This document shows positions 31,800 through 47,569 of a stretch of 64,000 nt of DNA, piece by piece. The translations under genes were made by a program, and so were the position numbers. Source of the stretch: Phaeospirillum sp. (GTDB lineage: Bacteria; Pseudomonadota; Alphaproteobacteria; Rhodospirillales; Magnetospirillaceae); NCBI GenBank assembly GCA_030824585.1, contig JAVBXM010000008.1, forward strand, positions 37,832 to 101,831. Reading direction: 5' to 3'. Position 1 is the first letter of the stretch, and each line of letters opens with the position of its first letter. A model generated the notes under the pieces. The model had not been told where the DNA came from, made no database searches, and worked only from the letters and a program-made list of their open reading frames with translations.

Positions 31800-33650
31800 C
31801 TAGAAGCGGAACGTGGCGTTGGCGAAGATTTCCGTCTCGTCGTGGGCCATGCCGATGATGCCGGTCCGCAGGTTGCCGAAGGGCTCGGTGCCCAGCCAGG
31901 CGCCCTTGGAGGCCTGGCCGTCCCACGGCACGCCGGTGGCGGCGTCGGCGTTGTTGCCGAAGGTGTTGCGGTACTCGCCGAACTTGACGTTGGCGCCCAG
32001 GCGGAAGCGCCAGGCGGCGGCGGGAATCCACTCGACCGAAGGCTCCAGCACGTTGGCCCCGGCCCGGAAGTCGCGGGCGAAGACCATCTGCGGGCTGACG
32101 GTGTCGGCCATGTACCAGCCCTTGACCATCAGGGTGCCGATCCAGTTCATGTCCCAGTCGGGCATGCCGATGACGCCGTTCTGACGGCTGTGGTACAGCT
32201 CGTGCTGCAGAATGTGCTGGCCGAATACCTGGCCGCTGATCAGGAAGGCGCGGCGCTCGTTGAGGAACGGAATGAAGGTGCTGCGGTCGGCGCCGATGAC
32301 GTAGCGCACCACGTCGGACTTCTTGTAGAGCTGCTTTTGCGCCGTCGAGGCGAATTCCTCGCCCTGGGTGTAGACGCTTTCCAGCCGGAAGGCGGTGTCG
32401 ATGGGATCGACGGTGAAGTCGAGCGAACCGCCGAAGATGTTCAGGCGGGGGAACTCGATGTCGAAGGCCGGGGCATAGTCCCACACCCCGTAATTGCCGT
32501 TCATGCCGTTGCGGCTGACGATGCCGCCCCGCAGCGACGGCATCTGCGAACGCATGGTCAGCGCGTTGACCGAGAAGCCGACGCCCTTGATCTCGCCCTC
32601 GACCTTGCCGCCATAGGTCATGTTCGACAGGTTCCACTCGGGCATATTGGCCTGGCGGATGCCGATCTGGTTGCGGCCGAAGTTGAGCGCGTTGTTGCCG
32701 CCGTTATAGTTGCCGACGGTACAGCCGTTGTCCCAGCAGTTCTTCAGGGCGCGGAACATGCCGGCGGCGCCGGCCGGATTGTTGGGGCTGCCGGCCTGGC
32801 CCAGGTTGTTGGGCCGGAACTTCTCGAACATCCACAGGCCCTGGACGTTCAGGTCGTCGAAGGGGCCGCGCGCCCCCATGCGGTAATCGGCGCGGACCAT
32901 GCCCATGGGAATGCGGATGTCCTGCAACTCGTCATAGATGTTGTTGCGCGAGTAATCGACCGGGTTGACCACGTCGAGCACCCGGAACAGGTCGGTTCGG
33001 CCCCAGACCAGTTGCTGGCGCCCCACCCGTAGCGCCAGGGTGTTGCTCCCCACCGGCATCTCGGCGTCGACGAACAGTTCGCGCACCACGTCGGCGCGGG
33101 AATTCAGTTCGGGGGCCGCCAGATCCCTCTGGCTGTAATCCATGTAGTCCTTGATGCAGCCGCGGCTGTCCACGTCGCAGGGACGGACCGGGGTGGCGAA
33201 GATCAGGCCGTTGTCGGGGCGCCGCCAGCCGTTGACGAGGGCCAGGCCCTCGTTGGGATTGCCGGCCCCGGTCACCATGTCGGCGATGGGCAGGACGTTG
33301 CCGCTGCCCCACGACGTCGCCTTCGAACCGTCGTTGTTGTCGAATTTCACCGAACTGCCGGCGCGGCTGCCGTACTCGGTGGGGTTCAGGTCGTAGACGC
33401 CGTCATACGAGGCCCGCAGGGTGGCGTGGACCTTCATCATGCTGAACGGGCCGCCCACGTTGAGCTTCTTGTCTAGATCGCTCTGGCCCATGCTGCGGGC
33501 CTTGGACAGGCCGGTGGTGGGCCGGAAGCGCACCTCCTCGTCCAGCTTGTTCTTGACGACCCAGCCGTCGGCGTCGGCCGCCAGTGCCGGCAGCGCCAGC
33601 ATCAGCGGCCAGATCAGGGCCATGGTGGTTAAGGTCAAACGACGTCTCAT
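31800..33650 (-). CDS. DUF1302 outer-membrane protein
   Basis: 616 residues from ATG 33650 (GGAG five bases upstream). Signal peptide LTLTTMALIWPLMLALPALAADA, then a long beta-rich sequence ending in IFANATFRF, an aromatic C-terminus typical of outer-membrane barrels. Internal motifs such as LRVGRQQLVWGRTDLFRVLDVVNP and DYRMGARGPFDDLNVQGL are characteristic of DUF1302. Together with DUF1329, the RND permease and the YCF48-like lipoprotein it likely forms an envelope transport system for aromatic or hydrophobic substrates. Confidence 0.85.
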   Translation of the reverse strand: MRRRLTLTTMALIWPLMLALPALAADADGWVVKNKLDEEVRFRPTTGLSKARSMGQSDLDKKLNVGGPFSMMKVHATLRASYDGVYDLNPTEYGSRAGSSVKFDNNDGSKATSWGSGNVLPIADMVTGAGNPNEGLALVNGWRRPDNGLIFATPVRPCDVDSRGCIKDYMDYSQRDLAAPELNSRADVVRELFVDAEMPVGSNTLALRVGRQQLVWGRTDLFRVLDVVNPVDYSRNNIYDELQDIRIPMGMVRADYRMGARGPFDDLNVQGLWMFEKFRPNNLGQAGSPNNPAGAAGMFRALKNCWDNGCTVGNYNGGNNALNFGRNQIGIRQANMPEWNLSNMTYGGKVEGEIKGVGFSVNALTMRSQMPSLRGGIVSRNGMNGNYGVWDYAPAFDIEFPRLNIFGGSLDFTVDPIDTAFRLESVYTQGEEFASTAQKQLYKKSDVVRYVIGADRSTFIPFLNERRAFLISGQVFGQHILQHELYHSRQNGVIGMPDWDMNWIGTLMVKGWYMADTVSPQMVFARDFRAGANVLEPSVEWIPAAAWRFRLGANVKFGEYRNTFGNNADAATGVPWDGQASKGAWLGTEPFGNLRTGIIGMAHDETEIFANATFRF

Positions 33651-33691
33651 TGGACTCCCTCCCTGTAGTCGCCCCCCTTGGGCGAGTTGGT

Positions 33692-36040
33692 TCAAACGGC
33701 CTGGTCGGCCTCACGGGTGATGAATTTCGGGCGGAACGCGGCGATCCAGGCCGGCACGAAGACCATGGCCGAGACGGCGCAGACGATGATCATGAAGATC
33801 AGCAGCTTGGCGGCGTCGGCCTGGAACCGCAGGTCCGAGACGAACACCCAGGCGACGATGCCGCCCACCAGGGTGGTCACCGTGCAGGTCACCGCCAGTC
33901 CGGTGGTGGCGATGGCCCGCCCGATGGCCGCCTGGAAGTCCAGGTGCTCGTGCAGTTCATCCCTGATGCGGTCGATGATGTAGACCGCGTAGTCGATGCC
34001 GATGCCCAACCCCACCGAGATCAGCGGCACGGTGTTGATATTCAGCCCGATGCGGTTGACCGACAGGTAGGCGTAGGTCATGGCGGTGGGCACCAGCATG
34101 GCGATGAACATCAAGAGGCCGGCGTGCCACGAGCGGTAGGTGAAGCCCACCAATCCGCAGATCAGCACGAAGACCATGGGGATGACCTTGAGATTGTCCG
34201 AGAAGATCTCGCGGTTGACCGCCGCCGTGACGCCCAGCACGCCGCCGGCCAGCTCGATGGTCACTCCTTTGGCCAGGGCGGCGACCGCCTTGGCGCCCTC
34301 GGCGGCCATGGCGATGGCGCGGTCCACGGTCTCGCCCTTGTGGTCCTTGTAGAACAGGGCGAGGTTGGCCTTGGAATAGTCCGAGGTGATGAAGTCGTTC
34401 AGTGTGCCGGGAATCGGGCTGGACGCCATGTAGGCGAACAGCACGCCGCCCACCAGTTGGGCGTCGTGGGGAATCTGCTCCCAGCGCTGGTCGCCGTTAT
34501 GGATCAGCTTGTTGACCTGGCGCACCAGGGTCGGCACCGACTTGACGCCGCCCAGTTCGGGGTCGAGCAGCATGTGGTTGTTGAAGGTCTCGATGGCCTT
34601 CATGGCCTCGGGGTCCTTCAGCCCGCCGGGCTTGTCGGCCTTGGCCACCAGCAGCAACTGCTCCGAGCCGGGGAACAGGGCGTTCACCGCCGCCGAGGAC
34701 AGGTTGTAGTCGTGGTCGCGGTAGAGCAGCGGCGAACCGGGCTCGGATTCGCCGATGGTGATGTCCTTGGCCACCACCAGCGAGCCCAGGACCAGCAGCC
34801 CGCCGAGCGCGCTCATGGCCATGGCGCTGCGGCGTCCGGCCACCAGATGGCCCAGGCGGCCCAGCGCGGCACCCAGCACCGAGTGCTTGCGCACCGTCGC
34901 CTTGGGCGTCGGCATGTAGCTGAGCAGCAGCGGTACGGTGACCAGCACGTTCAGCATGCCCGACAGGGCCCACAGCGCGGTGAACACGCCGAGCTCGAAA
35001 TTGATGCGCACCGAGCCGGTCACCAGCAGGATCAGGCCGACGGCGTCGCAGGTGATGCCCAGCGTGCCGGGATGGAACATCTCGCGCAGCGTCTGCTCCG
35101 CCGCCTTGCGCCCGTCGCCGACCCGGGCCAGCTCCTGGTACCAGCGTTCGACGATCTGGATGCCGTGGCTCATGGAGCGCGCGGCGATCAGGAACGGAAT
35201 CACCAGCATCAAGGGGTCCAGGTGGTAGCCCAGCACCACGATGTAGCCCAGGCCCCAGACGGTGGAGATGAAGATGCCGACCAGCGGCAGCGCCACCCCG
35301 TGGAAGCGCCGGAAATAGGCGACCAGCAGCACCAGGACGATCACCGCCGTATAGGCGAAGACCTGCAGGCTTTGCGGCAGGTAGGAATAGACCCAGCCGA
35401 TCAGGGCGGGCTGGCCGGTGGTGTGGATGCGGATGCCGCCCTTGTTCTCACGCGCACGGATGTCCTGCAGTCCCTGGAAGATGCCCAGGTAGTCCAACTG
35501 GCCGCCGTCGATGAACTGGGCCTTGATCAGCGCCGCCTTGAGATCGGGCGAGACGATCAGCCCGAACACCCGGGGATCGACCAGCACCTTGGCCTTCATG
35601 GCCGCCAGTTGCTCCGGCGTCATGGCGCCGAGCGCCGGGTTGTAATAGACCTCGGAGCGCACGCTGCCTTCCTCGGTCAGCGAGATGAAGCGCGCCGTGC
35701 GGTGGGTGATGGACGACACCAGGTTGTGGTTGACGCCCGGCAGGTTGTCGATGGCGCCGGTCACCCGGTCGATGGCCGCCAGGTTCTCGTTGGAAAAGAT
35801 GGTCCCCTCGGAGACCTCGACGGCCACGGTCAGCACGTTGGCGCCGCCGAACAGGCCCCTGATCTCGTTGTGGACCTTGATGAAGGGATGCTGCTGCGGC
35901 AGCAGGCCCTCGAAATCGGTGTAGATCTTGAGCGCCGGAATCTTGGCCGCGAAGGCCAGGGTCACCAGCAGCACCAGGGTAAGGACGAGGCCGCGTCGCG
36001 CGAACAGGCGGTCGGGCAGCGTCTCGATGAAGCTTTTCAT
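33692..36040 (-). CDS. RND/MMPL-type permease
   Basis: 782 residues in the two-repeat layout of the MMPL/HpnN-like RND branch: TM1, large periplasmic loop, TM2-6, TM7, second periplasmic loop, TM8-12. GLGIGIDYAVYIIDRIRDE in the second half is the conserved TM10-11 signature with an acidic residue for proton coupling; the first half has a matching FLIAARSMSHGIQIVERWYQE. It is energised by the proton motive force. Gene order YCF48-RND-DUF1302-DUF1329 is a recurrent module in proteobacteria that use aromatics or sterols. Whether it imports, exports or traffics lipids is not shown by the sequence. Confidence 0.85.
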   Translation of the reverse strand: MKSFIETLPDRLFARRGLVLTLVLLVTLAFAAKIPALKIYTDFEGLLPQQHPFIKVHNEIRGLFGGANVLTVAVEVSEGTIFSNENLAAIDRVTGAIDNLPGVNHNLVSSITHRTARFISLTEEGSVRSEVYYNPALGAMTPEQLAAMKAKVLVDPRVFGLIVSPDLKAALIKAQFIDGGQLDYLGIFQGLQDIRARENKGGIRIHTTGQPALIGWVYSYLPQSLQVFAYTAVIVLVLLVAYFRRFHGVALPLVGIFISTVWGLGYIVVLGYHLDPLMLVIPFLIAARSMSHGIQIVERWYQELARVGDGRKAAEQTLREMFHPGTLGITCDAVGLILLVTGSVRINFELGVFTALWALSGMLNVLVTVPLLLSYMPTPKATVRKHSVLGAALGRLGHLVAGRRSAMAMSALGGLLVLGSLVVAKDITIGESEPGSPLLYRDHDYNLSSAAVNALFPGSEQLLLVAKADKPGGLKDPEAMKAIETFNNHMLLDPELGGVKSVPTLVRQVNKLIHNGDQRWEQIPHDAQLVGGVLFAYMASSPIPGTLNDFITSDYSKANLALFYKDHKGETVDRAIAMAAEGAKAVAALAKGVTIELAGGVLGVTAAVNREIFSDNLKVIPMVFVLICGLVGFTYRSWHAGLLMFIAMLVPTAMTYAYLSVNRIGLNINTVPLISVGLGIGIDYAVYIIDRIRDELHEHLDFQAAIGRAIATTGLAVTCTVTTLVGGIVAWVFVSDLRFQADAAKLLIFMIIVCAVSAMVFVPAWIAAFRPKFITREADQAV

Positions 36041-36050
36041 GGGGCGGTCC

Positions 36051-36995
36051 TCAATTGGTCTTGGTGGCGGGGATCGGCATCAGCGTGCCGGTGCCGGCCA
36101 GCACCAGCCCCGTCCCGGTGGCGGCCAGGCCGCGCAGATCGGCCATGGGAACGCCGGAAATCGGCGTCCAGGCGCCGCCGGTCCGCCGCGCCGCGATGCC
36201 GGCCGCGCCCGCCACCACCGCTTCGTCGCCGGGCAGGGCCAGGACGCCGTACAGCGGCGCCTCGACCGGCGCATTGCCCCGAATCCAGGTGCGGCCGCCG
36301 TCCAGGGTCTCCAGCACGGCGCCGCCGAGGCCCACCACCAGCCCGCGCCGCTCGGTCTCGAAATGCATGCCCTGGGGATAGAAATCCTCGCCCAGCCCAC
36401 CGCCCGGCGCCCAGGTGGCGCCGTTATCGGTGGTGATCAGCACCCGGCCGAACTCGCCGGTCACCACGCCGAAGGCGGGGGTGGGGAACTGGACGTTGAG
36501 CAATTGGATATCCTCGTCGAGGGATTTGGACGTCCAGCTCTTGGCCCCGTCGCCGCTGGTCACCAGTAGGCCGCGCGCCCCCGTCACCCACAGGCGGTTG
36601 TCGGCCGCGCAGGCCACGTCCAGATGGGCGTCCGACGGCGGCAGGTCGCGGGGCGACCAGGTGGCGCCGTCGGGCGTGCCCAGCCACAGCCGGCCGCCGA
36701 AATCCAGCGCCGCGAACGAGCCGTCGCCGCAGGCGGTCACCTTGATCAGCGCGCCGCCCTGGGCCAGGTCCCGGCGCTTCCAGGTGGCGCCGTTGTCGCC
36801 CGAGACGATCACCGCCCCGAACGAGCCCACGGCGACCAGCGCCTTGCCGTTGCCGGCCACCGATTGCAGGTGGTCGATGCGGCGCACCGCCTTGGCCATC
36901 TCGGCCGCCACGCCGCTGTGGCGCTGGTCCCCCTGGCAGGCGCCAAGGCCCAGCACCGCCAGCGCCACGGCCAGCATTCTCAAGCGATAAGACAT
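36051..36995 (-). CDS. YCF48-like beta-propeller lipoprotein
   Basis: 314 residues. The N-terminus LAVALAVLGLGACQGDQ is a lipobox (LGAC), so it is a membrane-anchored lipoprotein. The rest has about seven BNR/YCF48-type repeats, each with a GATWxxR or D/N-G-G-x-T-W core (DNGATWKRR, DNGATWAPG, DGGRTWIRG). YCF48 proteins help assemble membrane complexes in photosynthesis; homologues next to RND/DUF1302/DUF1329 genes presumably help that transport complex. AGGGGAGGAC precedes ATG 36995. It is the first gene of the minus-strand operon, about 90 bp below a sigma54-type promoter. Confidence 0.85.
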   Translation of the reverse strand: MSYRLRMLAVALAVLGLGACQGDQRHSGVAAEMAKAVRRIDHLQSVAGNGKALVAVGSFGAVIVSGDNGATWKRRDLAQGGALIKVTACGDGSFAALDFGGRLWLGTPDGATWSPRDLPPSDAHLDVACAADNRLWVTGARGLLVTSGDGAKSWTSKSLDEDIQLLNVQFPTPAFGVVTGEFGRVLITTDNGATWAPGGGLGEDFYPQGMHFETERRGLVVGLGGAVLETLDGGRTWIRGNAPVEAPLYGVLALPGDEAVVAGAAGIAARRTGGAWTPISGVPMADLRGLAATGTGLVLAGTGTLMPIPATKTN

Positions 36996-37093
36996 GTCCT
37001 CCCCTTTCTTGACCGGCCCCCATCGATTGGGCGGGGGGCGTGATCACCACCGGACTTTCCTCGACCGTGGTCGGGTGGTGACCCGAGGGAGTT

Positions 37094-37109
37094 AGCAACC
37101 GCTATGCCA
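37094..37109 (-). promoter_or_regulatory. Sigma54 (-24/-12) promoter of the YCF48-RND-DUF1302-DUF1329 operon
   Basis: On the minus strand the sequence is TGGCATAGCGGTTGCT, with GG and GC separated by exactly ten bases (consensus TGGCAC-N5-TTGC). The start of the first gene is at 36995, leaving an untranslated leader of roughly 85-90 bases. It pairs logically with the sigma54 activator encoded at 47566-48945. Confidence 0.7.
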
Positions 37110-37327
37110 GTGCGCGGGATCTCGCCAAGAAGCATCATGTTGCGTTGCAATAAACGACAGTATCGGCCAGATGTGATTGGATTCGGCGTGTGGCTATCTA
37201 CTTATGGAGTGGCTCTGGAATCGATATATGTTGTTCCAAATGGCGACACTGTCTTGCATCTGTACACAGTGCATGGAATCTCGCGCCCGCAATTGGAGTG
37301 GATCGTTTTGGGTCAGTGTCGCGAAAT

Positions 37328-37343
37328 CGGTCAGTTCCTTGCC
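37328..37343 (+). promoter_or_regulatory. Weak candidate sigma54 promoter for the aryl-alcohol dehydrogenase
   Basis: CGGTCAGTTCCTTGCC has GG-N10-GC and TTGC but a poor -24 box. It would start transcription about 90 bases before ATG 37444. GTGTCGCGAAAT just upstream (37316-37327) shares an inverted 11-base match (TTTCGCGACAC) with the palindrome at 39843-39861. Apart from this and the promoter at 37094-37109, I see nothing in 36996-37443. Confidence 0.35.
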
Positions 37344-37443
37344 GCGTGTTGCCGTGGGTTCGCCCCGGCCCTTGGGGCGGAAGGCGGTGGCACCGGGATT
37401 GCAGCGGACGGGGGACAAACAGCTCCAAACGGGAGGACCGTCC

Positions 37444-38544
37444 ATGAAAGTCAATGCCGCCGTTACCCGGGCCAAGCACGCCCCCATGTCCCTGGAAGTT
37501 CTCGATCTGGCCGAACCCCGGGACGGGGAGATCCTGGTCCGCGTCGTCGCCACCGGCGTCTGCCACACCGACATCGCCATGCGCGACCAGACCTATCCGG
37601 TGCCCCAGCCCATCGTGCTGGGCCACGAGGGGGCCGGCGTGGTGGAGAAGGTGGGGCGCGGCGTCACCAAGGTCGCGGTGGGCGACCATGTGGTGATGTC
37701 CTATAATTCGTGCGGCCACTGCGACAGCTGCAACGAGCACGCTCCCAACTACTGCCACGACTTCTTCGGCCACAACTTCGCCGGCGTGCGTCCCGACGGG
37801 ACCAGCGCGCTGAGCAAGGGGGGCGAGGTCATCCACGGCAACTTCTTCGGCCAGTCGTCCTTCGCCAATTTCGCCCTGTGCCACGAGCGCAACGTGGTCA
37901 AGGTCTCCAAGGACGCGCCGCTGGAGCTGCTCGGGCCGCTGGCCTGCGGCATCCAGACCGGGGCGGGCGCGGTGATCAACGCGCTGAAGGTCGGGGCGGG
38001 CCGCACCATCGCGGTGTTCGGCGCCGGCTCGGTGGGCCTGTCCGCCGTGATGGCGGCCCGCGTGGTGGGGGCCGTCACCATCGTCGCCGTGGACGTGGTG
38101 CCCGAGCGCCTGACCATGGCCAAGACCCTGGGGGCCACCCATGCCCTCAATCCCAAGGAGGTGGACGTGGTGGCCGAGATCATGAAGATCACCGGCACCG
38201 GTGTGGATTTCGCCTTCGAATCCACCGGCATTCCGGCGGTGATCCGCAACGCCATGGAAAGCCTGGCGCCGCGCGGCACCTGCGGCATCGTCGGCGCCGC
38301 CTCGCTGGATACCGAGATCACGCTCAACGCCATGCACCTGATGACGGCCGGGCGCTCCATCCGGGGCATCGTCGAGGGCGATTCCACTCCGGACGTGTTC
38401 ATTCCCCAACTGATCGAACTGTATCGCCAGGGGCGCTTCCCCTTCGACAAGCTGGTCAGCTTCTATCCCTATGAGAAGATCAACCAGGCGGTCGAGGACG
38501 CCGAGACCGGCAAGGCCATCAAACCGATCATCCGCATGGGCTGA
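37444..38544 (+). CDS. Zinc-dependent aryl-alcohol dehydrogenase
   Basis: 366 residues from ATG 37444 (GGGAGGACC upstream; longer ORF-track starts are unsupported). MDR superfamily: catalytic zinc ligands in CHTD and GHEGAGVVE, a structural zinc lobe with CGHCDSCNEHAPNYC, and the NAD fold VFGAGSVGLSA. The overall sequence resembles benzyl-alcohol/aryl-alcohol dehydrogenases (LGPLACGIQTGAGAVIN). Beside p-cresol genes it probably oxidises 4-hydroxybenzyl alcohol to 4-hydroxybenzaldehyde, a step the methylhydroxylase can also perform. It ends at a strong bidirectional terminator. Confidence 0.87.
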   Translation: MKVNAAVTRAKHAPMSLEVLDLAEPRDGEILVRVVATGVCHTDIAMRDQTYPVPQPIVLGHEGAGVVEKVGRGVTKVAVGDHVVMSYNSCGHCDSCNEHAPNYCHDFFGHNFAGVRPDGTSALSKGGEVIHGNFFGQSSFANFALCHERNVVKVSKDAPLELLGPLACGIQTGAGAVINALKVGAGRTIAVFGAGSVGLSAVMAARVVGAVTIVAVDVVPERLTMAKTLGATHALNPKEVDVVAEIMKITGTGVDFAFESTGIPAVIRNAMESLAPRGTCGIVGAASLDTEITLNAMHLMTAGRSIRGIVEGDSTPDVFIPQLIELYRQGRFPFDKLVSFYPYEKINQAVEDAETGKAIKPIIRMG

Positions 38545-38611: not shown

Positions 38612-39703
38612 CTATTGGGCGGCGTCCGGGGCGGGGCGCGACAGCGGCCAGAAGGCGAAGCCGTCGCCGAGCGCCACGAACACCGGGAAGGTCACCGACA
38701 GCATGGCGGTGGCGATCCACAGGTCCAGGCCGTAGGTGGGGGCGCCGCCGGGCATGGCGCCGACCAGCATGACGGCGGCGGCGGCGTAGACCCGGTACAT
38801 CACCACGGCCAGCACCACCACCAGGACCAGCAGAGCCAAGCCCTTGACCGGCTGGCGGATGGCCTGGAACGGCGCGGTCTGCATCATGACCAGCATGATG
38901 AATTCACCGAACAGGCCCGAGACCGGCACGCGGACCATGTAATCCACCACGTCCATGCCCATCACCTTGATGCCCAGGGTCCAGACGACCCAGGAGACGG
39001 CCAGCACCAGCACGGCGTTGAGCAGGCCGAACAGCGGCTGGCGCCCCAGGGCCGGAAGCGCCGCCGCGATGGTGGCCGACGGCCAGAAGTCCAGCAGCAC
39101 GAACCACATGATCACCGAGACGGTGGTGACGATGAACGAGAGCGCGTTCCAGGCGGGGAAGGCTCCCTTGGGGTCCAGGGCGGCGGCATAGAAGGGGGCG
39201 TCCTTCATGGCGCCGAAATCGAAACCCAGCTTGAAGGTGACCAGGGCGGTGACATAGGCCAGGACGAAGACGCCCAGGCCGATCGCTCCCGGATGCTTGG
39301 AAACGGCGGCCATGGGCCAGCACTGGAACACCGCCACCAGCCAGAAGGCGCAGCACACCGAGACGATGGTGTACATGATGGCGAAGGGCTTGGGCACGCC
39401 GAAGCCGCCATCCACCAGGGCCAGGATGGTCGGCGTCATGATCAGGGCGGCAGCCAGCATCAGCCCCAGGATGGCCACGCCCTTCACCGGCTGGGCCAGA
39501 CGGCCGAGAAAGCCGGGATAGGCGCTCTGCCACACCAGGCCGATGACGATCTGGCCCGGGATGGCGCTCATGATCAGCAGCGCCACCCAACTGCCGAAGG
39601 TGGCGGGGTCGAACTGGGCGCAGATGCCCAGGGACAGGCTGACCGCCACCAGGGCGGTGACGATTCCGAGAACGGGCTGCTTGAGCCCAAGAGAGTTCGG
39701 CAT
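38612..39703 (-). CDS. Polytopic membrane protein of unknown family, divergent from pch genes
   Basis: 363 residues from ATG 39703 (GGGGGAAACC upstream). About ten or more hydrophobic helices with little hydrophilic sequence, for example VLGIVTALVAVSLSLGI, VAILGLMLAAALIMTPTIL and GLALLVLVVVLAVVMYRVY. Two similar short segments, LAQPVKGVAILG and IRQPVKGLALLV, suggest an internal duplication. I do not recognise the family. It is divergent from pchC, has its own sigma54-type promoter, and shares the palindromic region with pchC, so it is probably induced with the pathway: an attractive candidate for p-cresol or 4-hydroxybenzoate transport. Confidence 0.75.
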   Translation of the reverse strand: MPNSLGLKQPVLGIVTALVAVSLSLGICAQFDPATFGSWVALLIMSAIPGQIVIGLVWQSAYPGFLGRLAQPVKGVAILGLMLAAALIMTPTILALVDGGFGVPKPFAIMYTIVSVCCAFWLVAVFQCWPMAAVSKHPGAIGLGVFVLAYVTALVTFKLGFDFGAMKDAPFYAAALDPKGAFPAWNALSFIVTTVSVIMWFVLLDFWPSATIAAALPALGRQPLFGLLNAVLVLAVSWVVWTLGIKVMGMDVVDYMVRVPVSGLFGEFIMLVMMQTAPFQAIRQPVKGLALLVLVVVLAVVMYRVYAAAAVMLVGAMPGGAPTYGLDLWIATAMLSVTFPVFVALGDGFAFWPLSRPAPDAAQ

Positions 39704-39755
39704 GGTTTCCCCCATCGAGTTCCGTTGTCGCGTCGAGCGCGTTGAGCCCTTGGGT

Positions 39756-39771
39756 AGCAACCCCCATGCCA
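39756..39771 (-). promoter_or_regulatory. Sigma54 (-24/-12) promoter of the membrane protein gene
   Basis: Minus-strand TGGCATGGGGGTTGCT has GG-N10-GC and both consensus halves (TGGCA, TTGC). It lies about 53-68 bases upstream of ATG 39703. It faces away from the matching promoter at 39914-39929. Confidence 0.7.
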
Positions 39772-39810
39772 TCGTCCCGTTCCCGGCGAAGCGGCGGCAT
39801 GGGGAAGGGC

Positions 39811-39861
39811 TGTCGCGTTTTCGGCTGTCCCGTTTCAACGCAGTGTCTCGTTTCGCGACAC
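39811..39861. promoter_or_regulatory. Candidate activator-binding (UAS) region between divergent sigma54 promoters
   Basis: Three related elements start at 39811 (TGTCGCGTTTTCG), 39826 (TGTCCCGTTTCAA) and 39844 (TGTCTCGTTTCGCGACA). The last is part of a 19-bp near-perfect palindrome, GTGTCtCG-TTT-CGcGACAC. The block lies 40-100 bp upstream of the minus-strand promoter and 50-120 bp upstream of the pchC promoter, where NtrC-family enhancer sites usually sit. An inverted copy of TTTCGCGACAC occurs at 37316. Confidence 0.6.
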
Positions 39862-39913
39862 CTTCCGCCGGCCGGCAGGGGCGGAGAATGGCGATCCCGG
39901 CCCGCTGGGCATC

Positions 39914-39929
39914 TGGCATCACCCTTGCA
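39914..39929 (+). promoter_or_regulatory. Sigma54 (-24/-12) promoter of pchCXFA
   Basis: TGGCATCACCCTTGCA has GG and GC with ten bases between and a full TTGCA -12 box. The pchC start (GTG) is at 39999, giving a leader of roughly 60 bases. Confidence 0.75.
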
Positions 39930-39998
39930 GTGCCATGCTGCGCAAACCGGCCTCAAAGGATAGAGGGCCGGGCAACGGCAAGTTGGGGGAGGTCCCAA

Positions 39999-40331
39999 GT
40001 GAAGAAGAAAAGAAATCAAGCAGCCGTGCTGGCCGGCTCGCTCGTCATCGGCTTCGTTGCTTCTGTCGCGGCCGGGGATGCCTGGGCGCAGGTCGCCGGG
40101 CAATGGCGGGATGCCCAGCATGTCTATTCCAAGATCTGCGCCAACTGTCATGAAATCGGTGTCGGCCCGGTGATCAAGGGCCGCAACCTCGACCCCGACT
40201 ATTATCAGAGCGTGGTGCGTCACGGCATGCGGGCCATGCCCGCCTTCCGCCCCACCGACGTGGACGATGCTATGCTGCGGCAGGTGGCCGAGATGCTGTC
40301 CAAGAGCCCGGCGCCGGGAGGGGCGAAATGA
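39999..40331 (+). CDS. pchC: p-Cresol methylhydroxylase cytochrome c subunit
   Basis: 110 residues starting at GTG 39999 behind GGGGGAGG. Signal peptide (QAAVLAGSLVIGFVASVAAGDAWA) then a small class I cytochrome c with CANCHE for covalent haem and a C-terminal axial Met region (GMRAMPAFRPTDVDD). In the periplasmic PCMH enzyme it accepts electrons from the flavoprotein subunit PchF. Its position at the head of a pchC-X-F-A order, as known from Pseudomonas putida, supports the name. The stop overlaps the pchX start. Confidence 0.85.
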   Translation: MKKKRNQAAVLAGSLVIGFVASVAAGDAWAQVAGQWRDAQHVYSKICANCHEIGVGPVIKGRNLDPDYYQSVVRHGMRAMPAFRPTDVDDAMLRQVAEMLSKSPAPGGAK

Positions 40332-40813
40332 GGCTGTCGCGCCGCGCCGTGCTGGGAGCCGCCCTGGGTGGCGGCACCCTGGCCGCCCTGCGCGGGCTGC
40401 CGGCGGCGGCCATGACCGCCCCGGTCTCCGGCGCCACCCTGGTGCTGGCCGATCCGTCGGTGAGCCCCGGCTTCGCCGAGGCGGTCCGCAACTGGACCGG
40501 CGGCACCGTCCGCACGGTGACCGGGCCCCAGACCCTGGCCGACGCCGCCCGCTGGCTGGCGGCGGCGCCCGGGCGGCGGGTGGTCGGCCTGGTGGAGGAT
40601 TCCGACGGCGTGCTGTTCCAGCAGATGGTGCCGCGCGGCCGGGCCACCTGGCTGTCCGCCGTTCATCACGCCCCGCGCCCCGTGGCCGGATCGGACTGGG
40701 AGATCGCCCTGGGCGACGGCCTGGGCCGCATGGCCGCCGGACGCGCCACGGGCGGAAATCTGGATGCGGGCGGCCCATCGGTGGCCCGGATGTCCTTCGT
40801 GGTGGCCGGCTAA
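40328..40813 (+). CDS. pchX: PchX-like exported protein between pchC and pchF
   Basis: 161 residues. The ATG at 40328 overlaps the pchC stop (ATGA). N-terminus MRLSRRAVLGAALGGGTLAAL has a twin-arginine-type SRRAVLG motif followed by a hydrophobic core, so Tat export is likely. The mature part has alternating beta/alpha character (TLVLADPSVSPGFAEAV, RVVGLVEDSDG) but no known domain. In Pseudomonas a gene called pchX, of unclear role, occupies this same position. It may assist maturation or export of the flavocytochrome; name is by position, not by sequence comparison. Confidence 0.65.
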   Translation: MRLSRRAVLGAALGGGTLAALRGLPAAAMTAPVSGATLVLADPSVSPGFAEAVRNWTGGTVRTVTGPQTLADAARWLAAAPGRRVVGLVEDSDGVLFQQMVPRGRATWLSAVHHAPRPVAGSDWEIALGDGLGRMAAGRATGGNLDAGGPSVARMSFVVAG

Positions 40814-40837: not shown

Positions 40838-42385
40838 ATGGCCAGCAAGTATGTCGCCCTGCCCAAGGGCGTTTCGGAAAAGAACTTCGACGCCGCCATC
40901 CGCGAGTACCGCGAGATTCTGGGCGCCGCCAACGTCTTCACCGATGCCGAGCATCTGGTGTCCTACAACAAGATCATGATTCCCGACAGCAACGAGAACC
41001 ACCAGCCGTCGGCGGCCATCTGCCCGGCCTCCACCGAGGAGGTCCAGCGTTGCGTGGCGGTGTGCAACAAGTACAAGGTCCCGGTGTGGCCGATCTCGAC
41101 GGGCCGCAACCTGGGCTACGGCTCGGCGGCGCCGGGCTCGCGCGGGCAGGTGGTCATGGACCTGCGCCGCATGAACAAGATCATCGAGGTGGACGCCGAT
41201 CTGGGCACCGCCCTGGTCGAGCCGGGCGTCACCTTCCAGCAGCTCTACGACTACCTGCAGGACAACAAAATTCCGCTGTGGCTGTCGTGCCCGGCGCCGT
41301 CCTCCATCGCCGGCCCGCTGGGCAACGCCGCCGACCGCGGGGTGGGCTACACGCCTTATGGCGAGCACTTCATGTTCTCGTGCGGCATGGAAGTGGTGAT
41401 GCCCACCGGCGAGGTGCTGAAGACCGGCATGGGCTCGCTGCCCAATTCCAACACCGCCCAGGTGTTCAAGTGGGGGTACGGCCCCTATCTGGACGGCATC
41501 TTCACCCAGTCCAATTACGGCATCATCACCAAGATGGGCTTCTGGCTGATGCCGGCCCCGCCCGCCTTCAAGCCCTATGTCATCCGCTATCCCGAGGAAA
41601 CCGACATCGTCGACATCGTCGAGACGTTGCGGCCGCTGCGCATGGCCATGGTCATCCCCAACGCGGTGGTGATCGTCCACGCCCTGTGGGAGCTGGGCTC
41701 GTTCCTCAAGCGTGCCGATTACTACACCGGCCCCGGCTCCATTCCCGATTCCGTGGTCAAGGAGATGGTGAAGAAGCACAAGGTCGGCATGTGGAACGTC
41801 TATTGCGGCCTCTACGGCACGCCCGAGCAGAACGAGGTCAACTGGAACATCATCCAGCACGTGGTCAAGTCGTCGGGCAAGGGTGAGTTGCTGACCGCCG
41901 AGCAGGTGGGCGATGATCCGGTATTCAAGTACCGCGCCGATCTGATGCAGGGCAAGATGAACACCGCCGAGTTCGGACTCTACAATTGGCGGGGCGGCGG
42001 CGGCTCGGCGTGGTTCGCCCCCGTGAGCCAGGCGCGCGGCAGCGAGACCATGAAGCAGATGGAGATGACCAAGCGTATCCTGGGCAAGTACGGCTTCGAC
42101 TACGTCTCGGAGTTCATCGTCGGCTGGCGCGACATGCACCATATCGTCGACCTGCTCTACGACCGTACCGATCCGGCCCAGATGCAGGCCGCCCACGCCT
42201 GTTTCGACGAACTGCTGACGGAGTTCTCCAAGCACGGCTACGGCACCTACCGCGTCAACACCGCCTTCATGGACAAGGTCGCCGACACCTACGGGCCGGT
42301 GAAGAAGGAGGTCAACCGCAAGATCAAGCGGGCGCTGGACCCCAACGGCATCATCGCGCCCGGCAAGTCCGGTATCTGGAACTAA
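40838..42385 (+). CDS. pchF: p-Cresol methylhydroxylase flavoprotein subunit
   Basis: 515 residues, vanillyl-alcohol-oxidase/PCMH family. N-terminal FAD-binding PP-loop domain (PASTEEVQRCVAVCNKYKVPVWPISTGRNLGYG, GSRGQVVMDLRRMNKI), then a cap domain and the C-terminal segment NRKIKRALDPNGIIAPGKSG shared by the family. FAD is covalently tyrosyl-linked in PCMH; I cannot fix that residue here. It hydroxylates p-cresol with water at the methyl group, giving 4-hydroxybenzyl alcohol and then the aldehyde, without O2. It has no signal peptide, as is true of known PchF, which is thought to travel with a partner. AGGAG precedes ATG 40838. Confidence 0.88.
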   Translation: MASKYVALPKGVSEKNFDAAIREYREILGAANVFTDAEHLVSYNKIMIPDSNENHQPSAAICPASTEEVQRCVAVCNKYKVPVWPISTGRNLGYGSAAPGSRGQVVMDLRRMNKIIEVDADLGTALVEPGVTFQQLYDYLQDNKIPLWLSCPAPSSIAGPLGNAADRGVGYTPYGEHFMFSCGMEVVMPTGEVLKTGMGSLPNSNTAQVFKWGYGPYLDGIFTQSNYGIITKMGFWLMPAPPAFKPYVIRYPEETDIVDIVETLRPLRMAMVIPNAVVIVHALWELGSFLKRADYYTGPGSIPDSVVKEMVKKHKVGMWNVYCGLYGTPEQNEVNWNIIQHVVKSSGKGELLTAEQVGDDPVFKYRADLMQGKMNTAEFGLYNWRGGGGSAWFAPVSQARGSETMKQMEMTKRILGKYGFDYVSEFIVGWRDMHHIVDLLYDRTDPAQMQAAHACFDELLTEFSKHGYGTYRVNTAFMDKVADTYGPVKKEVNRKIKRALDPNGIIAPGKSGIWN

Positions 42386-42401: not shown

Positions 42402-43844
42402 ATGAAGGAATACAAGCTGTTCATCGGCGGCGAATGGGTCGCCTCGTCGGGCAACACCGTCGCCGACAACATCGATCCGGCCACCGGCAAGGCCTTCGCC
42501 CGCGTCCACCAGGCCGGGCTGCCCGACCTGGAAAAGGCGGTGGCCGCCGCCCATGCCGCATCCAAGGAATGGGGCAACACGCTGGCCAACCAGCGCGAGG
42601 CCATCCTGATCAAGGCCGCCGACGTGCTGGCCGGGCGTATCCCGGAAATCGCCGAGGTGCTGCGCTACGAATCCGGCTCAACCTTCGGCAAGTCCATGTT
42701 CGAGGTGTCGTTCTGCGTCAACCTGCTGCGCAGCGCGGCGGGCGAATGCCGGCGTATCTTCGGCGAGACCATGCCGTCCGATTCCCCCGGCCTGTTCTCC
42801 ATGAGCGTGCGCCGGCCGCTGGGCGTCATCGCCGGCATCGCGCCCTACAACTTCCCCTTCCTGCTGGCCTTCAAGAAGGTGGCCATGGCGCTGGCGGCGG
42901 GTAACGCCTTCGTGCTGAAGCCGGCGGGCTATACCCCCATCTCGGGCCTGATGATCGCCGAGGTGATGGAAGCCGCCGGCCTGCCCAAGGGCGTGCTGAA
43001 CGTCATTCCCGGCCCCGGCGGCAAGCTGGGCGACGCCCTGATCGCCGATCCCCGGGTCAAGATGGTGACCTTCACCGGCTCCACCGAGGTGGGCCGCCAT
43101 ATCGGCGAGATGGCCGCCCGGCACTTCAAGAAGTGCACCCTGGAGATGGGCGGCAAGAGCCCGCTGATCGTGCTCAAGGACGCCGACATCCCCTATGCGG
43201 TGGACGCCGCCTGCTTCGGCATCTTCCTGCACCAGGGCCAGGTCTGCATGGTCAACTCGCGCATCATCGTCGAGGAACCGATCTTCGACGAATTCTGCAA
43301 GGCCTTCACCGCCAAGGTCCGCACGCTGCAGGTGGGCGACCCCCACCACCCGCACACCGTGATCGGCCCGCTGATCAACCAGGGCCAGTGCGCCGTGGTG
43401 CAGGGCCACGTGGACGACGCGGTGAAGAAGGGCGCGCGGCTGCTCAACGGTGGCAAGTCCGACGGCGCCTTCTACGAGCCGACGGTGCTGGCCGGGGTCA
43501 CCGACGACATGGTGGTCTACCGCGACGAGACCTTCGGGCCGCTGGTGTCCATCATCCGCGCTGGTGATTCCGAGGAAGCCCTGGAGATCGCCAACGACAG
43601 CAATTACGGCCTGTCCTCGGCGGTGATCACCAACGACCTGCAGAAGGCCATGGACCTGGCGATGCGCCTTGAATCCGGGGCCGTCCACCTCAACGACTGC
43701 ACCATCTACGACGAGCCGCACGTGCCCTTCGGCGGCATCAAGGAAAGCGGCATGGGCCGCGAGGGTGGCAAGTGGTCCATGGAGGAGATGACCGAGATCA
43801 AGTGGATCACCATTCAGATGGGCAAGCGCCACTTCCCGTTCTGA
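42402..43844 (+). CDS. pchA: 4-Hydroxybenzaldehyde dehydrogenase (ALDH superfamily)
   Basis: 480 residues, full-length aldehyde dehydrogenase. Cofactor region PYNFPFLLAFKK, general base in LEMGGKSP, nucleophile Cys in HQGQVCMVNSRI, and ETFGPLVSII near the end. Homologous to the vanillin/benzaldehyde dehydrogenase branch. In this operon it should oxidise 4-hydroxybenzaldehyde to 4-hydroxybenzoate with NAD(P)+, completing the upper p-cresol pathway. GGGAGGAG precedes ATG 42402 and the pchF stop is 16 bp away. Confidence 0.87.
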   Translation: MKEYKLFIGGEWVASSGNTVADNIDPATGKAFARVHQAGLPDLEKAVAAAHAASKEWGNTLANQREAILIKAADVLAGRIPEIAEVLRYESGSTFGKSMFEVSFCVNLLRSAAGECRRIFGETMPSDSPGLFSMSVRRPLGVIAGIAPYNFPFLLAFKKVAMALAAGNAFVLKPAGYTPISGLMIAEVMEAAGLPKGVLNVIPGPGGKLGDALIADPRVKMVTFTGSTEVGRHIGEMAARHFKKCTLEMGGKSPLIVLKDADIPYAVDAACFGIFLHQGQVCMVNSRIIVEEPIFDEFCKAFTAKVRTLQVGDPHHPHTVIGPLINQGQCAVVQGHVDDAVKKGARLLNGGKSDGAFYEPTVLAGVTDDMVVYRDETFGPLVSIIRAGDSEEALEIANDSNYGLSSAVITNDLQKAMDLAMRLESGAVHLNDCTIYDEPHVPFGGIKESGMGREGGKWSMEEMTEIKWITIQMGKRHFPF

Positions 43845-43932: not shown

Positions 43933-45474
43933 ATGACCGAATGCAATCGCCGCAAAAGTCCGCTCAACAACGCCAGCGAACAGATCGCCGGCTGGCAGGC
44001 GGCCGCCGGGCTGGGCGGCAAGGCCGCCATCCTGGCCGCCGAGCGCGCAGTCACCTTCTCGGACCTGGCCGAAAGCATCAACCGGGTCGGCAACGGCCTG
44101 CTGGCCGGCGGCGTGCGGCCCGGCGACCGGGTGATCCTGCTGATGGCCGACACGCCCGAGCTGATCGCCGCCTATCTGGCGGTGATGAAGGTCGGCGCGG
44201 TGGCCATCGCGCTCAATACCCGCGGCAGCGCCGGCGATATCGGCCATGCCATGGAGGACAGCGGCTGCGCCGCCCTGCTGACCGACCATACCCTGCTGTC
44301 CCTGTTCCAGTCGGCCCTGGACCGTACCGATTACCGCCCGCCCCTGGTGGTGGACGACGTGGCCGCCTTCGCCGCCGGCCAGCCGGCCGAACTGGCGGCC
44401 CATGCGGTCCTGCCCACCGATCCCGCCTTTATGATCTACACCTCTGGCACCACGGGGGCCGCCAAAGGCGCCATCCACCGCCACGGCGACGTGGAGATCG
44501 GCGACCTGCACCTGCGGCAGAATTTCGGCGTGGCCCCCGGCGACCGGGTGTTCTCCACTTCGAAGCTGTTCTTCGCCTATGCCCTGGGCCACAGCCTGAT
44601 CGGCGCGCTGAAATGCGGCGCCACCGTTATCCTTTATGCCGGCTGGCCCGATGCCGAGGCGGTGGCCGAGGTGGTCGAGCGTCACGCTCCCACCATCTTG
44701 CTCAGCGTGCCCACCCTTTATCGCAACCTGCTCCGCAGCCAGGTGGTCGGCCGCCCCGCCTTCCGCCGTATCCGTCACTTCATCTCCGCCGGGGAGCGGC
44801 TGCCGGAATCGGTGTTCTCGGAATGGCTCCAGGCCACCGGCCAGCCCATCCTGGAAGGGATCGGCACCAGCGAGATCGTCTTCCTGGCCATCGCCAACAC
44901 GCCGTTGGCCTATCGCATGGGCTCGTCGGGCCGCCCCCAGCCCTGGGCCCGGGTCAAGCTGCTGGACGAGGACGGCAAACCGGTGCGCGAGCCCGGCCGC
45001 ACCGGCATCTTGTGGCTGAAGATGGCCTCGGTGGCCGCCGGCTACTGGAACCAGCCGGACAAGACCGCCGAGGCGTTCCAGAAGGGCTGGTACCGCACCG
45101 GCGACGTCTTCTCGGTGGATGCCGAGGGTTGGTGGGAACACCACGGGCGCGGCGACGACATGCTGAAGATCTCCGGCCAGTGGGTCAGTCCCGCCGAGAT
45201 CGAGGAGCACGCCCTGAAGCTGCCCGGCATCGCCGAGGTGGCCGCCGTGGGGGTGACCACCCAGGACGGGCTGGTCCGCCTGGGCCTTGCCGTGGTCCGT
45301 GCCGATTTCGCCCCGGGCACCGAGGTGATGGAGGCCAATCTGCGCCAGCATTTCGAGCGCAGCCTGTCCATCTACAAATGTCCGCGCCGCATCCGCTTCG
45401 TCGACGAGATGCCGCGCACCGTCACCGGCAAGCTGCAGCGCTTCCGGGTCCGCGACCTGTTCGCGCCGGAATAG
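43933..45474 (+). CDS. Aryl-CoA ligase (4-hydroxybenzoate/benzoate-CoA ligase family)
   Basis: 513 residues, ANL adenylate-forming enzyme. AMP motif IYTSGTTGAAKGAIHRH, then GTSEIVF, YRTGDVFSVD, GRGDDMLKISGQWVSP and the C-terminal Lys in TVTGKLQRF. The pattern (HGDVEIGDLHLRQNFGV..., FFAYALGHSLIGAL) is that of benzoate/4-hydroxybenzoate-CoA ligases. Here it most plausibly activates 4-hydroxybenzoate to 4-hydroxybenzoyl-CoA, the entry to anaerobic ring reduction. No hydroxybenzoyl-CoA reductase genes occur in the window. Confidence 0.85.
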   Translation: MTECNRRKSPLNNASEQIAGWQAAAGLGGKAAILAAERAVTFSDLAESINRVGNGLLAGGVRPGDRVILLMADTPELIAAYLAVMKVGAVAIALNTRGSAGDIGHAMEDSGCAALLTDHTLLSLFQSALDRTDYRPPLVVDDVAAFAAGQPAELAAHAVLPTDPAFMIYTSGTTGAAKGAIHRHGDVEIGDLHLRQNFGVAPGDRVFSTSKLFFAYALGHSLIGALKCGATVILYAGWPDAEAVAEVVERHAPTILLSVPTLYRNLLRSQVVGRPAFRRIRHFISAGERLPESVFSEWLQATGQPILEGIGTSEIVFLAIANTPLAYRMGSSGRPQPWARVKLLDEDGKPVREPGRTGILWLKMASVAAGYWNQPDKTAEAFQKGWYRTGDVFSVDAEGWWEHHGRGDDMLKISGQWVSPAEIEEHALKLPGIAEVAAVGVTTQDGLVRLGLAVVRADFAPGTEVMEANLRQHFERSLSIYKCPRRIRFVDEMPRTVTGKLQRFRVRDLFAPE

Positions 45475-45484
45475 GGAGGCAACG

Positions 45485-45673
45485 GTGGAGTATACCTGGG
45501 AAGAGATCGACCAGATGGCGGATATTCTCGAGGCCGAGATCGCCGGCGGGCGTTTCGACCCTCCCGCCGCCCGCACCCTGGCGCTGCGGGTGGCGGACCT
45601 GTGCCCCGATATCCGCGCCAGCATGAATCTGATTGCCGCGCGCATGACGGAGTATGTTGAACCGGCCAAGTAG
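45485..45673 (+). CDS. 62-aa protein after the CoA ligase
   Basis: A small, helical, acidic protein (MEYTWEEIDQMADILEAEIA... ending EYVEPAK) that starts 10 bp after the ligase stop, with GGGAGGCAAC just before its ATG. The strong ribosome site and tight spacing argue that it is real and cotranscribed. No family recognised; it could be a small partner of the ligase. Confidence 0.6.
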   Translation: MEYTWEEIDQMADILEAEIAGGRFDPPAARTLALRVADLCPDIRASMNLIAARMTEYVEPAK

Positions 45674-45754
45674 GCCAGTGTAAATACGGTAAATCACGCG
45701 CCAGAAAACGATGCGCGGAAAATTAAGAATAATGATTGTGGGAGGAACTATGAG

Positions 45755-47569
45755 GTGCAACCTCGGGATATGACGCTGCCCGATCTGGTCAGTTTTGACC
45801 CGGATCATGGCTTGATTTCATTTTGTGGACGCCGTGCGGTGTTGGTCCAGGCCGACGCCATGGGAGCCTTGCGCAAGGAGCTGATCGACACCCTGGGCGT
45901 CGACATCGCCAAGGTGATCCTGACCCGCTTCGGCTATAGCTGCGGCCAAAGCGACGCACGGCATCTGCACGCCCTGATGGGCGATGACGCCGTGTCGGAG
46001 TTCGTCCTGGCCGGGCCGAAGCTGCACATGCTCGAAGGCGTGGTCTGCGTCGAGACCCATGCCCTGCTCATCGACCCGGAGACCGGCCATTACGACATGG
46101 CCGGCGTGTGGAAGAACTCGTACGAGGCCGAGCAGCACGTAAGGTTGTTCGGCGTGTCGTCCGATCCGGTGTGCTGGACGGTGTCGGGCTATGCCTCGGG
46201 TTTCTCGTCGGTGGCGTTCGATACCCCGATGATCTGCATCGAGGACCAGTGCGTCGGACGCGGCCATGCCGAATGCTCGTGGCGCCTGATCTCCTCGGAC
46301 ATCTGCGGCCCCGAGCACGACGAGCATCGCCGCCTGTTCATGCCGCTCAACCTGCAGCAGCACATCAACCTGCTGGAGCAGAAGGTGCAGCAGCGCACCG
46401 CCGATCTGGCCGCCTCGGAATCGCGCTACCGCGATCTGGTGGACAACCTGTCGGAGATCGTCTTCAGCCTGGACGGCAACGGCCAGCTGGTCCACCTCAA
46501 CCGGGCCGGCCGCCGCCGGCTGGGCCTGGCGGCCGACGGCGAGATGGTGCCGCTGGCCCGCCTGATGACCATGCCCCACCGCCGCCGCCTCGCCCGTTTC
46601 CTGCGTCAGGTGGGCGACAGCGGGTCCGAGGGGCGGATCGAAACCGCGCTGCGCAGCCTGCACGGCGAGGAAATTCCCGCCCAGATGCAGATCAGCCCGG
46701 TGATGGACGGCGAACGGCTGGCCGGCTACCGGGGGCTGGCCATCGATATTTCCCAGCGTCAGGCCCGCGAGCGCAAGCTGACCGAATACGCCTCCAGCCT
46801 GGAAAGCCAACTGGCCCAGGCCACCCGTCTGGCCGGACTGGGGCAGTTCGCCTCGGGCATCGCCCACGAGATCAACAACCCCATGGGGTTGATCTCCGCC
46901 TATGCCGAGGACCTGCTCGACACCATCGGCGACGGCGGCGGCGGCGGGGACCCGGTGGACGTCGAGCGCCTGCGCCGCGGTCTGGCGACCATCCAGGAGC
47001 AGGCCTACCGCTGCAAGTACATCACCCAGAACGTGCTGTCCTTCGCCCGTGACCAGGTGGTCAACCTGGAGCCCACCAACCTGGGCGCCCTGGTGCGCGA
47101 CAAGGTGGCCTTCTTCAGCGACCGGGCCGGCGGAGTCGCCCTCGACATCCGCCTGACCGTCAACGACGACCTGCCGCCGGTCCGCACCGATCCCAGCCTG
47201 ATCGGCCAAGTTCTGCTCAATCTGCTGAAGAACGCCGCCGAGGCCACGGAATCCAACGGCCGTCTCATGGTGTCGCTGGGCCGTTTCCGCAGCCGTATCC
47301 GCCTGGAAGTGGCCGATGACGGCCCGGGGCTGGCGCCGGAGATCATGGAAAAGGTCTTCGACCCGTTCTTCACCACCAAGGAGCCCGACAGGGGGACCGG
47401 CCTCGGCCTGTCCATCTGCTACGGCATCGTGCGCTCCCTGGGGGGAACCATCACCTGCGGCAACCGCCCGGCCGGGGGGGCCTGGTTCCGCGTGTCGCTG
47501 CCAATGGTATCCGAAGGGCCAACGGCATCCGAGGGGCCAATTGTATCCGAGGGGAGTGTCGAGCGATGA
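45755..47569 (+). CDS. Aromatic-sensing histidine kinase (XylR-N/V4R - PAS - HisKA - HATPase)
   Basis: 604 residues from GTG 45755; ATG 45770 is an alternative. Residues 1-95 resemble the XylR_N aromatic-effector domain ([30 protein letters not shown]), 125-185 a V4R domain ([31 protein letters not shown]). These domains normally sit on XylR/DmpR-type sigma54 activators; here they feed a coiled coil, PAS domain and kinase: H-box [42 protein letters not shown]. No TM segment, so it senses in the cytoplasm. The stop overlaps the response-regulator start (ATGA). A p-cresol two-component system called PcrSR is, as I recall, described in Aromatoleum; this pair may correspond. Confidence 0.85.

Follow-up and report, generated by a model that had tools for sequence, protein, structure and literature searches.

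In Aromatoleum aromaticum EbN1, the p-cresol genes are controlled by the two-component system PcrSR together with a σ54 promoter, as described in PMC10715001, where the deletion data are credited to Vagts et al. 2020. The locus we describe here lies in a 64,000-nucleotide stretch of DNA (the window) and resembles the EbN1 system in several respects. Both have a σ54-type two-component system among p-cresol genes, with a V4R sensor that carries the His and Trp residues, and in both the p-cresol methylhydroxylase gene is preceded by a σ54 promoter. However, the EbN1 paper describes one σ54 promoter before cmh, whereas four are predicted here in two divergent pairs. The accessible text of PMC10715001 does not mention an enhancer or palindrome site. 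The likeness to EbN1 described here is one of architecture.

Other features of the locus have counterparts elsewhere. At zraP/zraSR of E. coli, the NtrC-family regulator ZraR binds between divergent units (PMC8249747), both of which are σ54-dependent (table in PMC3844500). However, the signal and genes are different, and the regulator genes themselves form one of the divergent units there. Ahead of its σ54 promoter, GcsR of Pseudomonas aeruginosa has three palindromic sites in tandem, each of ~18 bp, which were read as three dimers giving a hexamer (PMC4894688), but it is a one-component TyrR-like protein with the consensus TGTAACG-N4-CGTTCCG that serves one operon. NorR of E. coli also requires three upstream sites for assembly of its AAA+ oligomer (PMC2941729), although it is a one-component regulator with a GAF domain. 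The pch loci on Novosphingobium plasmids (L115 and L117) resemble this locus in the σ54 promoter that precedes the pch genes and in an XylR_N-like sensor domain, but they have a single-protein XylR_N-type regulator and no TGTC-N9-GACA triplets.

Divergent σ54 promoters that share an NtrC-type enhancer, tandem triple sites, and the p-cresol PcrSR system are therefore each already known. What appears to be new here is a motif and a 15/18 geometry for a PcrSR-type regulator, and the proposed extension of its regulon to two membrane-gene sets. For p-cresol regulators of this type, the locus thereby supplies a concrete motif and arrangement of sites that can be tested for binding, and shared control would tie two uncharacterised membrane-gene sets to p-cresol catabolism. 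The conserved spacing also makes the locus a simple case in which to study how the distances between sites shape assembly of an activator hexamer, and how two opposing promoters can share one enhancer. From the sequence and by analogy, we consider it very probable that the locus encodes a PcrSR-like p-cresol two-component system whose shared enhancers serve two divergent pairs of σ54 promoters, and this is our best reading of it.

Genes of the cluster and the sensor-regulator pair

The genes of the cluster are as follows.

31800-33695, leftward: DUF1302 gene
33692-36040, leftward: MMPL gene
36051-36995, minus strand: YCF48-like (BNR) gene, followed leftward by the MMPL and DUF1302 genes
37444-38544, plus strand: zinc-binding alcohol dehydrogenase, under the second rightward putative σ54 promoter
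38612-39703, minus strand: membrane protein of 363 aa, helices predicted throughout (low-confidence model, pLDDT 41)
39999-40331, plus strand: pchC-like cytochrome c (PF13442)
40328-40813, plus strand: small protein with a Tat-like leader (MRLSRRAVLGAALGGG...), in the same gene order as the annotated Tat protein beside Sulfuricurvum pchF
40838-42385, plus strand: pchF-like flavoprotein (FAD_binding_4 / FAD-oxidase_C)
42402-43844, plus strand: aldehyde dehydrogenase (PF00171)
43933-45474, plus strand: acyl/aryl-CoA ligase-like protein (from sequence and orthologues)
45755-47569, plus strand: PcrS-like sensor kinase (XylR_N, V4R, PAS, HisKA and HATPase)
47566-48945, plus strand: PcrR-like response regulator (receiver, σ54-activating AAA+ with GAFTGA, and Fis-type HTH)

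The aldehyde dehydrogenase probably acts on 4-hydroxybenzaldehyde, and the ligase-like protein is probably a 4-hydroxybenzoate-CoA ligase. Judging from adjacency, the YCF48-like, MMPL and DUF1302 genes probably form one operon, for export or an outer-membrane function, that would be driven by the second leftward σ54 promoter. The membrane protein encoded at 38612-39703 has no Pfam or NCBIfam match. Its family was found in 5 of the 60 genomes searched, counting its own. In genome G029 (locus L125), the neighbourhood of a homologue with 61% identity includes two σ54 activators of the one-component XylR_N kind, as well as PEP-utilising/PPDK-like genes, possibly for phenol phosphorylation. Separately, the gap from the CoA ligase-like gene to the sensor-kinase gene contains a short open frame of ~63 codons (VEYTWEEIDQMADILEAEIAGG..., 45487-45675).

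Among PDB structures, the N-terminus of the sensor gives matches to the phenol sensors MopR, PoxR and CapR. A His (in GPKLH) and a Trp (in VWKNS) are retained in the alignment, and we take them to correspond to the phenol-anchoring MopR His106 and Trp134. The pair has the composition of a PcrSR-type system: a V4R/XylR_N sensor with both residues and a regulator made of a receiver, a GAFTGA AAA+ domain and a Fis HTH, encoded with genes for p-cresol methylhydroxylase, aldehyde dehydrogenase and CoA ligase. According to PMC10715001, the conserved His and Trp anchor the phenol hydroxyl. Besides this regulator, the window encodes no other GAFTGA protein and no other σ54 activator.

Divergent promoters and tandem dyads upstream of pchC

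The membrane-protein gene and pchC diverge from a 295-bp spacer (39704-39998) that contains the following features.

39756-39771, minus strand: putative σ54 -24/-12 site TGGCATGGGGGTTGCT, in front of the membrane-protein gene (start codon 39703-39701)
39811-39827: dyad 1 of enhancer A, TGTCGCGTTTTCGGCTG, the weakest of the window; its counterpart in locus L033 is CGCCCCGATTTGAGACG
39826-39842: dyad 2 of enhancer A, TGTCCCGTTTCAACGCA, 18 bp ahead of dyad 3
39844-39860: dyad 3 of enhancer A, TGTCTCGTTTCGCGACA, within the palindrome 39843-39861 and identical in loci L031 and L124
39914-39929, plus strand: putative σ54 -24/-12 site TGGCATCACCCTTGCA, in front of pchC (GTG at 39999)

The first-pass annotation had proposed two -24/-12 matches with GG-N10-GC spacing that face away from each other, and both are found where it placed them, each in a TGGCAY...TTGCW context. 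In 20,000 dinucleotide-preserving shuffles of the spacer, a strong σ54 pattern arose on the plus strand in 0.01% and on the minus strand in 0.035%, and never on both. Across the 4.94-Mb genome, the pattern TGGCAYNNNNNTTGCW has 17 matches, compared with 2 for the reversed control, and 4 of the 17 fall inside this cluster within 2.84 kb. The genome has a single match for rpoN (Sigma54_DBD, 223 bits). No σ70-like promoter was detected in the spacer region. Shared σ54 control, as first suggested, is consistent with the presence of rpoN, with this lack of a σ70-like promoter in the spacer, and with PcrR as the only σ54 activator of the window.

It is conceivable that σ54 and the enhancer drive pchC only, with the leftward -24/-12 site a chance or vestigial match and the membrane protein using another promoter. 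The G029 homologue of the membrane protein, which has no strong -24/-12 match directly ahead of it, would fit this idea. However, the leftward site is rare in the shuffles, it is retained in four loci, and its distance of 82 bp to dyad 3 is invariant in three of these, so that we regard control of pchC alone as quite improbable. On the basis of the sequence, the spacer is well supported as a two-way σ54 control region.

Between the two sites lie three TGTCnCGTTT elements (39811, 39826 and 39844), which had been reported as one element inside a near-perfect palindrome plus two others. The elements are real: the 64-kb window has no others, and no shuffle contained three. A near-perfect 19-bp palindrome (GTGTCTCGTTTCGCGACAC, 39843-39861) is also present, with 7 of 9 arm positions paired. 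The trio is better read as three tandem 17-bp dyads of the type TGTC-N9-GACA than as a palindrome with two half-sites. The palindrome by itself is unremarkable, since a 19-bp palindrome with no more than one unpaired arm position occurs in ~7% of the spacer shuffles, and TGTCNC-N5-GNGACA with up to one mismatch shows no enrichment over chance in the 64-kb window. Significance comes from position, tandem spacing and conservation. We rejected the palindrome as the only binding site because it is one of three spaced dyads.

The near-perfect symmetry of the 19-bp element could also suggest an RNA hairpin, a terminator, or a binding site for a dimeric repressor that has no part in σ54 activation. 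We give this very little credence, as the palindrome lies upstream of both proposed starts and is one of three spaced dyads. No terminator-like site was found in the spacer region; two such calls lie inside pchC (40021-40038, minus strand). Measured to the -24 G, the dyad centres lie 63-91 bp from the pchC promoter, and the corresponding distance for the membrane-protein promoter is 82 bp. Relative to the predicted starts, these positions agree with the ~80-200 bp expected of repeated dyads in an NtrC-type upstream activating sequence, and the several dimer sites at conserved spacing also fit such an enhancer. We also searched for an enhancer of the XylR/DmpR type (TTGANCAA-N2-TTGNTCAA) and found no TTGA...TCAA dyads between or upstream of the promoters; the 64 kb contain one match with 3 mismatches, at 33678, which is at chance level.

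A second promoter pair and the spacing of the dyads

A second divergent σ54 pair, absent from the first-pass annotation, lies within 36996-37443, with dyads of the same kind in between.

37094-37109, minus strand: putative σ54 site TGGCATAGCGGTTGCT, in front of the YCF48-like gene (36051-36995); kept in L031 (1426, minus) and L033 (1105, minus)
37232-37266: enhancer B1, dyads TGTTCCAAATGGCGACA (37232) and TGTCTTGCATCTGTACA (37250), 18 bp apart
37299-37333: enhancer B2, dyads TGGATCGTTTTGGGTCA (37299) and TGTCGCGAAATCGGTCA (37317), 18 bp apart
37388-37403, plus strand: putative σ54 site TGGCACCGGGATTGCA, in front of the zinc alcohol dehydrogenase gene (ATG at 37444); kept in L031 (1719, plus) and L033 (1405, plus)

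All four σ54 promoters of the cluster are conserved in position in L031 and L033. Only pairs of dyads are evident at B1 and B2, and clear third dyads are not supported there. Locus L033 has an additional dyad (TGTCCCAAATCGCGGCA, 1624-1640) between its rightward σ54 site and adh, downstream of the promoter.

We then ranked all 64,000 positions of the window with a weight matrix trained on the dyads of L031 and L033 only. The top four positions were 39844, 37232, 37250 and 37317, although the independence of this ranking is only partial, since the training drew on orthologous sequence. The alignment with the window was also known when the training dyads were chosen, which leaves L032, L124 and the spacing tests as the only near-independent evidence. 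In the spacing tests, all ten main dyads from four loci have a partner exactly 18 bp away on one side. With shuffled flanks, the mean was 0.02 of ten and the maximum 2, and other offsets gave 3 of 1040. In region A, the third dyad lies 15 bp further out than the 18-bp pair. Summed over five loci, the (15,18) spacing scores 166, and the runner-up among 256 spacings scores 55 (distribution mean -52, sd 43). The outermost dyad of L031 scores low.

The distant locus L032 was excluded from the triplet matrix. Its (15,18) triplet upstream of pchC scores 31.2, the best of 19.8 kb, where the best match elsewhere is negative, and the order of the triplet relative to pchC is the same as in the window.

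Conservation, choice of regulator and proposed mechanism

The loci that bear on conservation are listed below.

L031: orthologous locus in a near genome, sensor identity 88%
L033: orthologous locus in a near genome, sensor identity 83-84%
L032: orthologous locus in a distant Acetobacteraceae assembly, sensor identity 64%
L124: relic locus in genome G008, without the regulator

The 15/18-bp spacing is retained in these four loci, including the distant L032. In L032, a σ54 site (TGGCACCCGTTTTGCG, 17402-17417, minus strand) lies upstream of pchC and another lies before adh (18457, plus strand). Both σ54 sites of the membrane protein/pchC spacer are retained in L031, L033 and L124. The three-way identity of the spacer is ~40%, but it rises to peaks of 80% in 20-bp windows at two places, the pchC promoter and 39841-39860, which covers dyad 3. 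In L033, the central palindrome reads GCGTATCGTTTCGATACAT, where the fifth pair has changed from C-G to A-T on both sides with palindromy preserved; such a compensatory change is expected for a two-fold binding site. The proposal of an NtrC-type enhancer serving both genes is thus supported at the level of sequence, as promoters and dyads were kept while the remaining spacer drifted.

The relic in G008 (L124, 8000-13800) has a truncated pchF with an ArdC-like gene after it, and its adh and YCF48-like genes have been cut and fused by a deletion that removed region B. Enhancer A and both of its σ54 sites are intact, and no PcrS or PcrR orthologue was found in the G008 genome. The cluster looks like a recent loss. 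As PcrS and PcrR are missing, conservation of the enhancer in G008 is not evidence of present binding by PcrR.

The dyads co-vary with the regulator genes across loci. Triplet scores are 31-37 in five loci, namely four PcrSR loci and the relic. Nine loci that carry a PchF or membrane-protein homologue without PcrSR gave no triplets (best score 10.1), and neither did 77 unrelated loci (maximum 19.4). Comparable 18-bp pairs were lacking at the genome's remaining 13 strong σ54 sites (best 15.5, compared with 32-34). Our search found no PcrS relatives on plasmids, and a sampled search of the phylum and of the class of G509 gave no matches for Aromatoleum-type loci.

These data also bear on which protein binds the dyads. 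The promoters and shared enhancer could be real while the dyads are bound mainly by another regulator, for example one responding to redox state or carbon source, with the local regulator acting elsewhere. The genome does encode about ten full σ54 activators, and the G008 enhancer persists without PcrSR orthologues. However, G008 appears to be a recent relic with truncated genes, the dyads co-occur with PcrSR genes and are missing from PchF loci that lack them, the remaining strong σ54 promoters of the genome lack comparable dyad pairs, and PcrR is the sole σ54 activator in the window. We therefore think binding mainly by another regulator is unlikely, though less so than the alternatives considered above. 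By adjacency and co-occurrence, the regulator encoded at 47566-48945 is the candidate dyad binder. By analogy with Aromatoleum PcrSR (PMC10715001), we infer that p-cresol is the signal. The two-component regulator of the cluster probably switches on both divergent genes when p-cresol is sensed.

We propose the following mechanism for the PcrSR-like system. p-Cresol or a close phenol would bind the XylR_N/V4R domain of the sensor, as its conserved His and Trp suggest, and the kinase (45755-47569) would phosphorylate the NtrC-type regulator encoded next to it (47566-48945). Dimers of this regulator may then fill the dyads at 39811, 39826 and 39844. Since the outer dyads are 33 bp apart, or ~3 helical turns, three dimers could build one AAA+ hexamer, and such assembly on the three dyads is suggested by analogy with GcsR (PMC4894688) and NorR (PMC2941729). 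Presumably by DNA looping, the hexamer would open σ54-RNA polymerase at either of the flanking -24/-12 promoters. The leftward output would be the membrane protein, and the rightward output pchC-X-pchF-aldehyde dehydrogenase-CoA ligase, with pcrSR downstream. Region 36996-37443, whose four dyads form two 18-bp pairs, would likewise drive the alcohol dehydrogenase gene on one side and the YCF48-MMPL-DUF1302 genes on the other, and the four promoters would make one pathway-specific regulon.

A further idea is tentative, and we lean somewhat against it. The fixed, asymmetric 15 + 18 bp ruler of three dyads may be a property of this enhancer family that scaffolds a single AAA+ hexamer firing two divergent σ54 promoters, with the outer sites on one face of the DNA and the middle site on the opposite face. 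In this lineage, the p-cresol regulon would then include the membrane protein and the YCF48-MMPL-DUF1302 export system.

Finally, a pchF homologue with 59% identity is present on plasmid pSULKU01 of Sulfuricurvum kujiense, a member of the Campylobacterota (locus L116), where a distinct sensor kinase and response regulator of its own adjoin the cytochrome gene.
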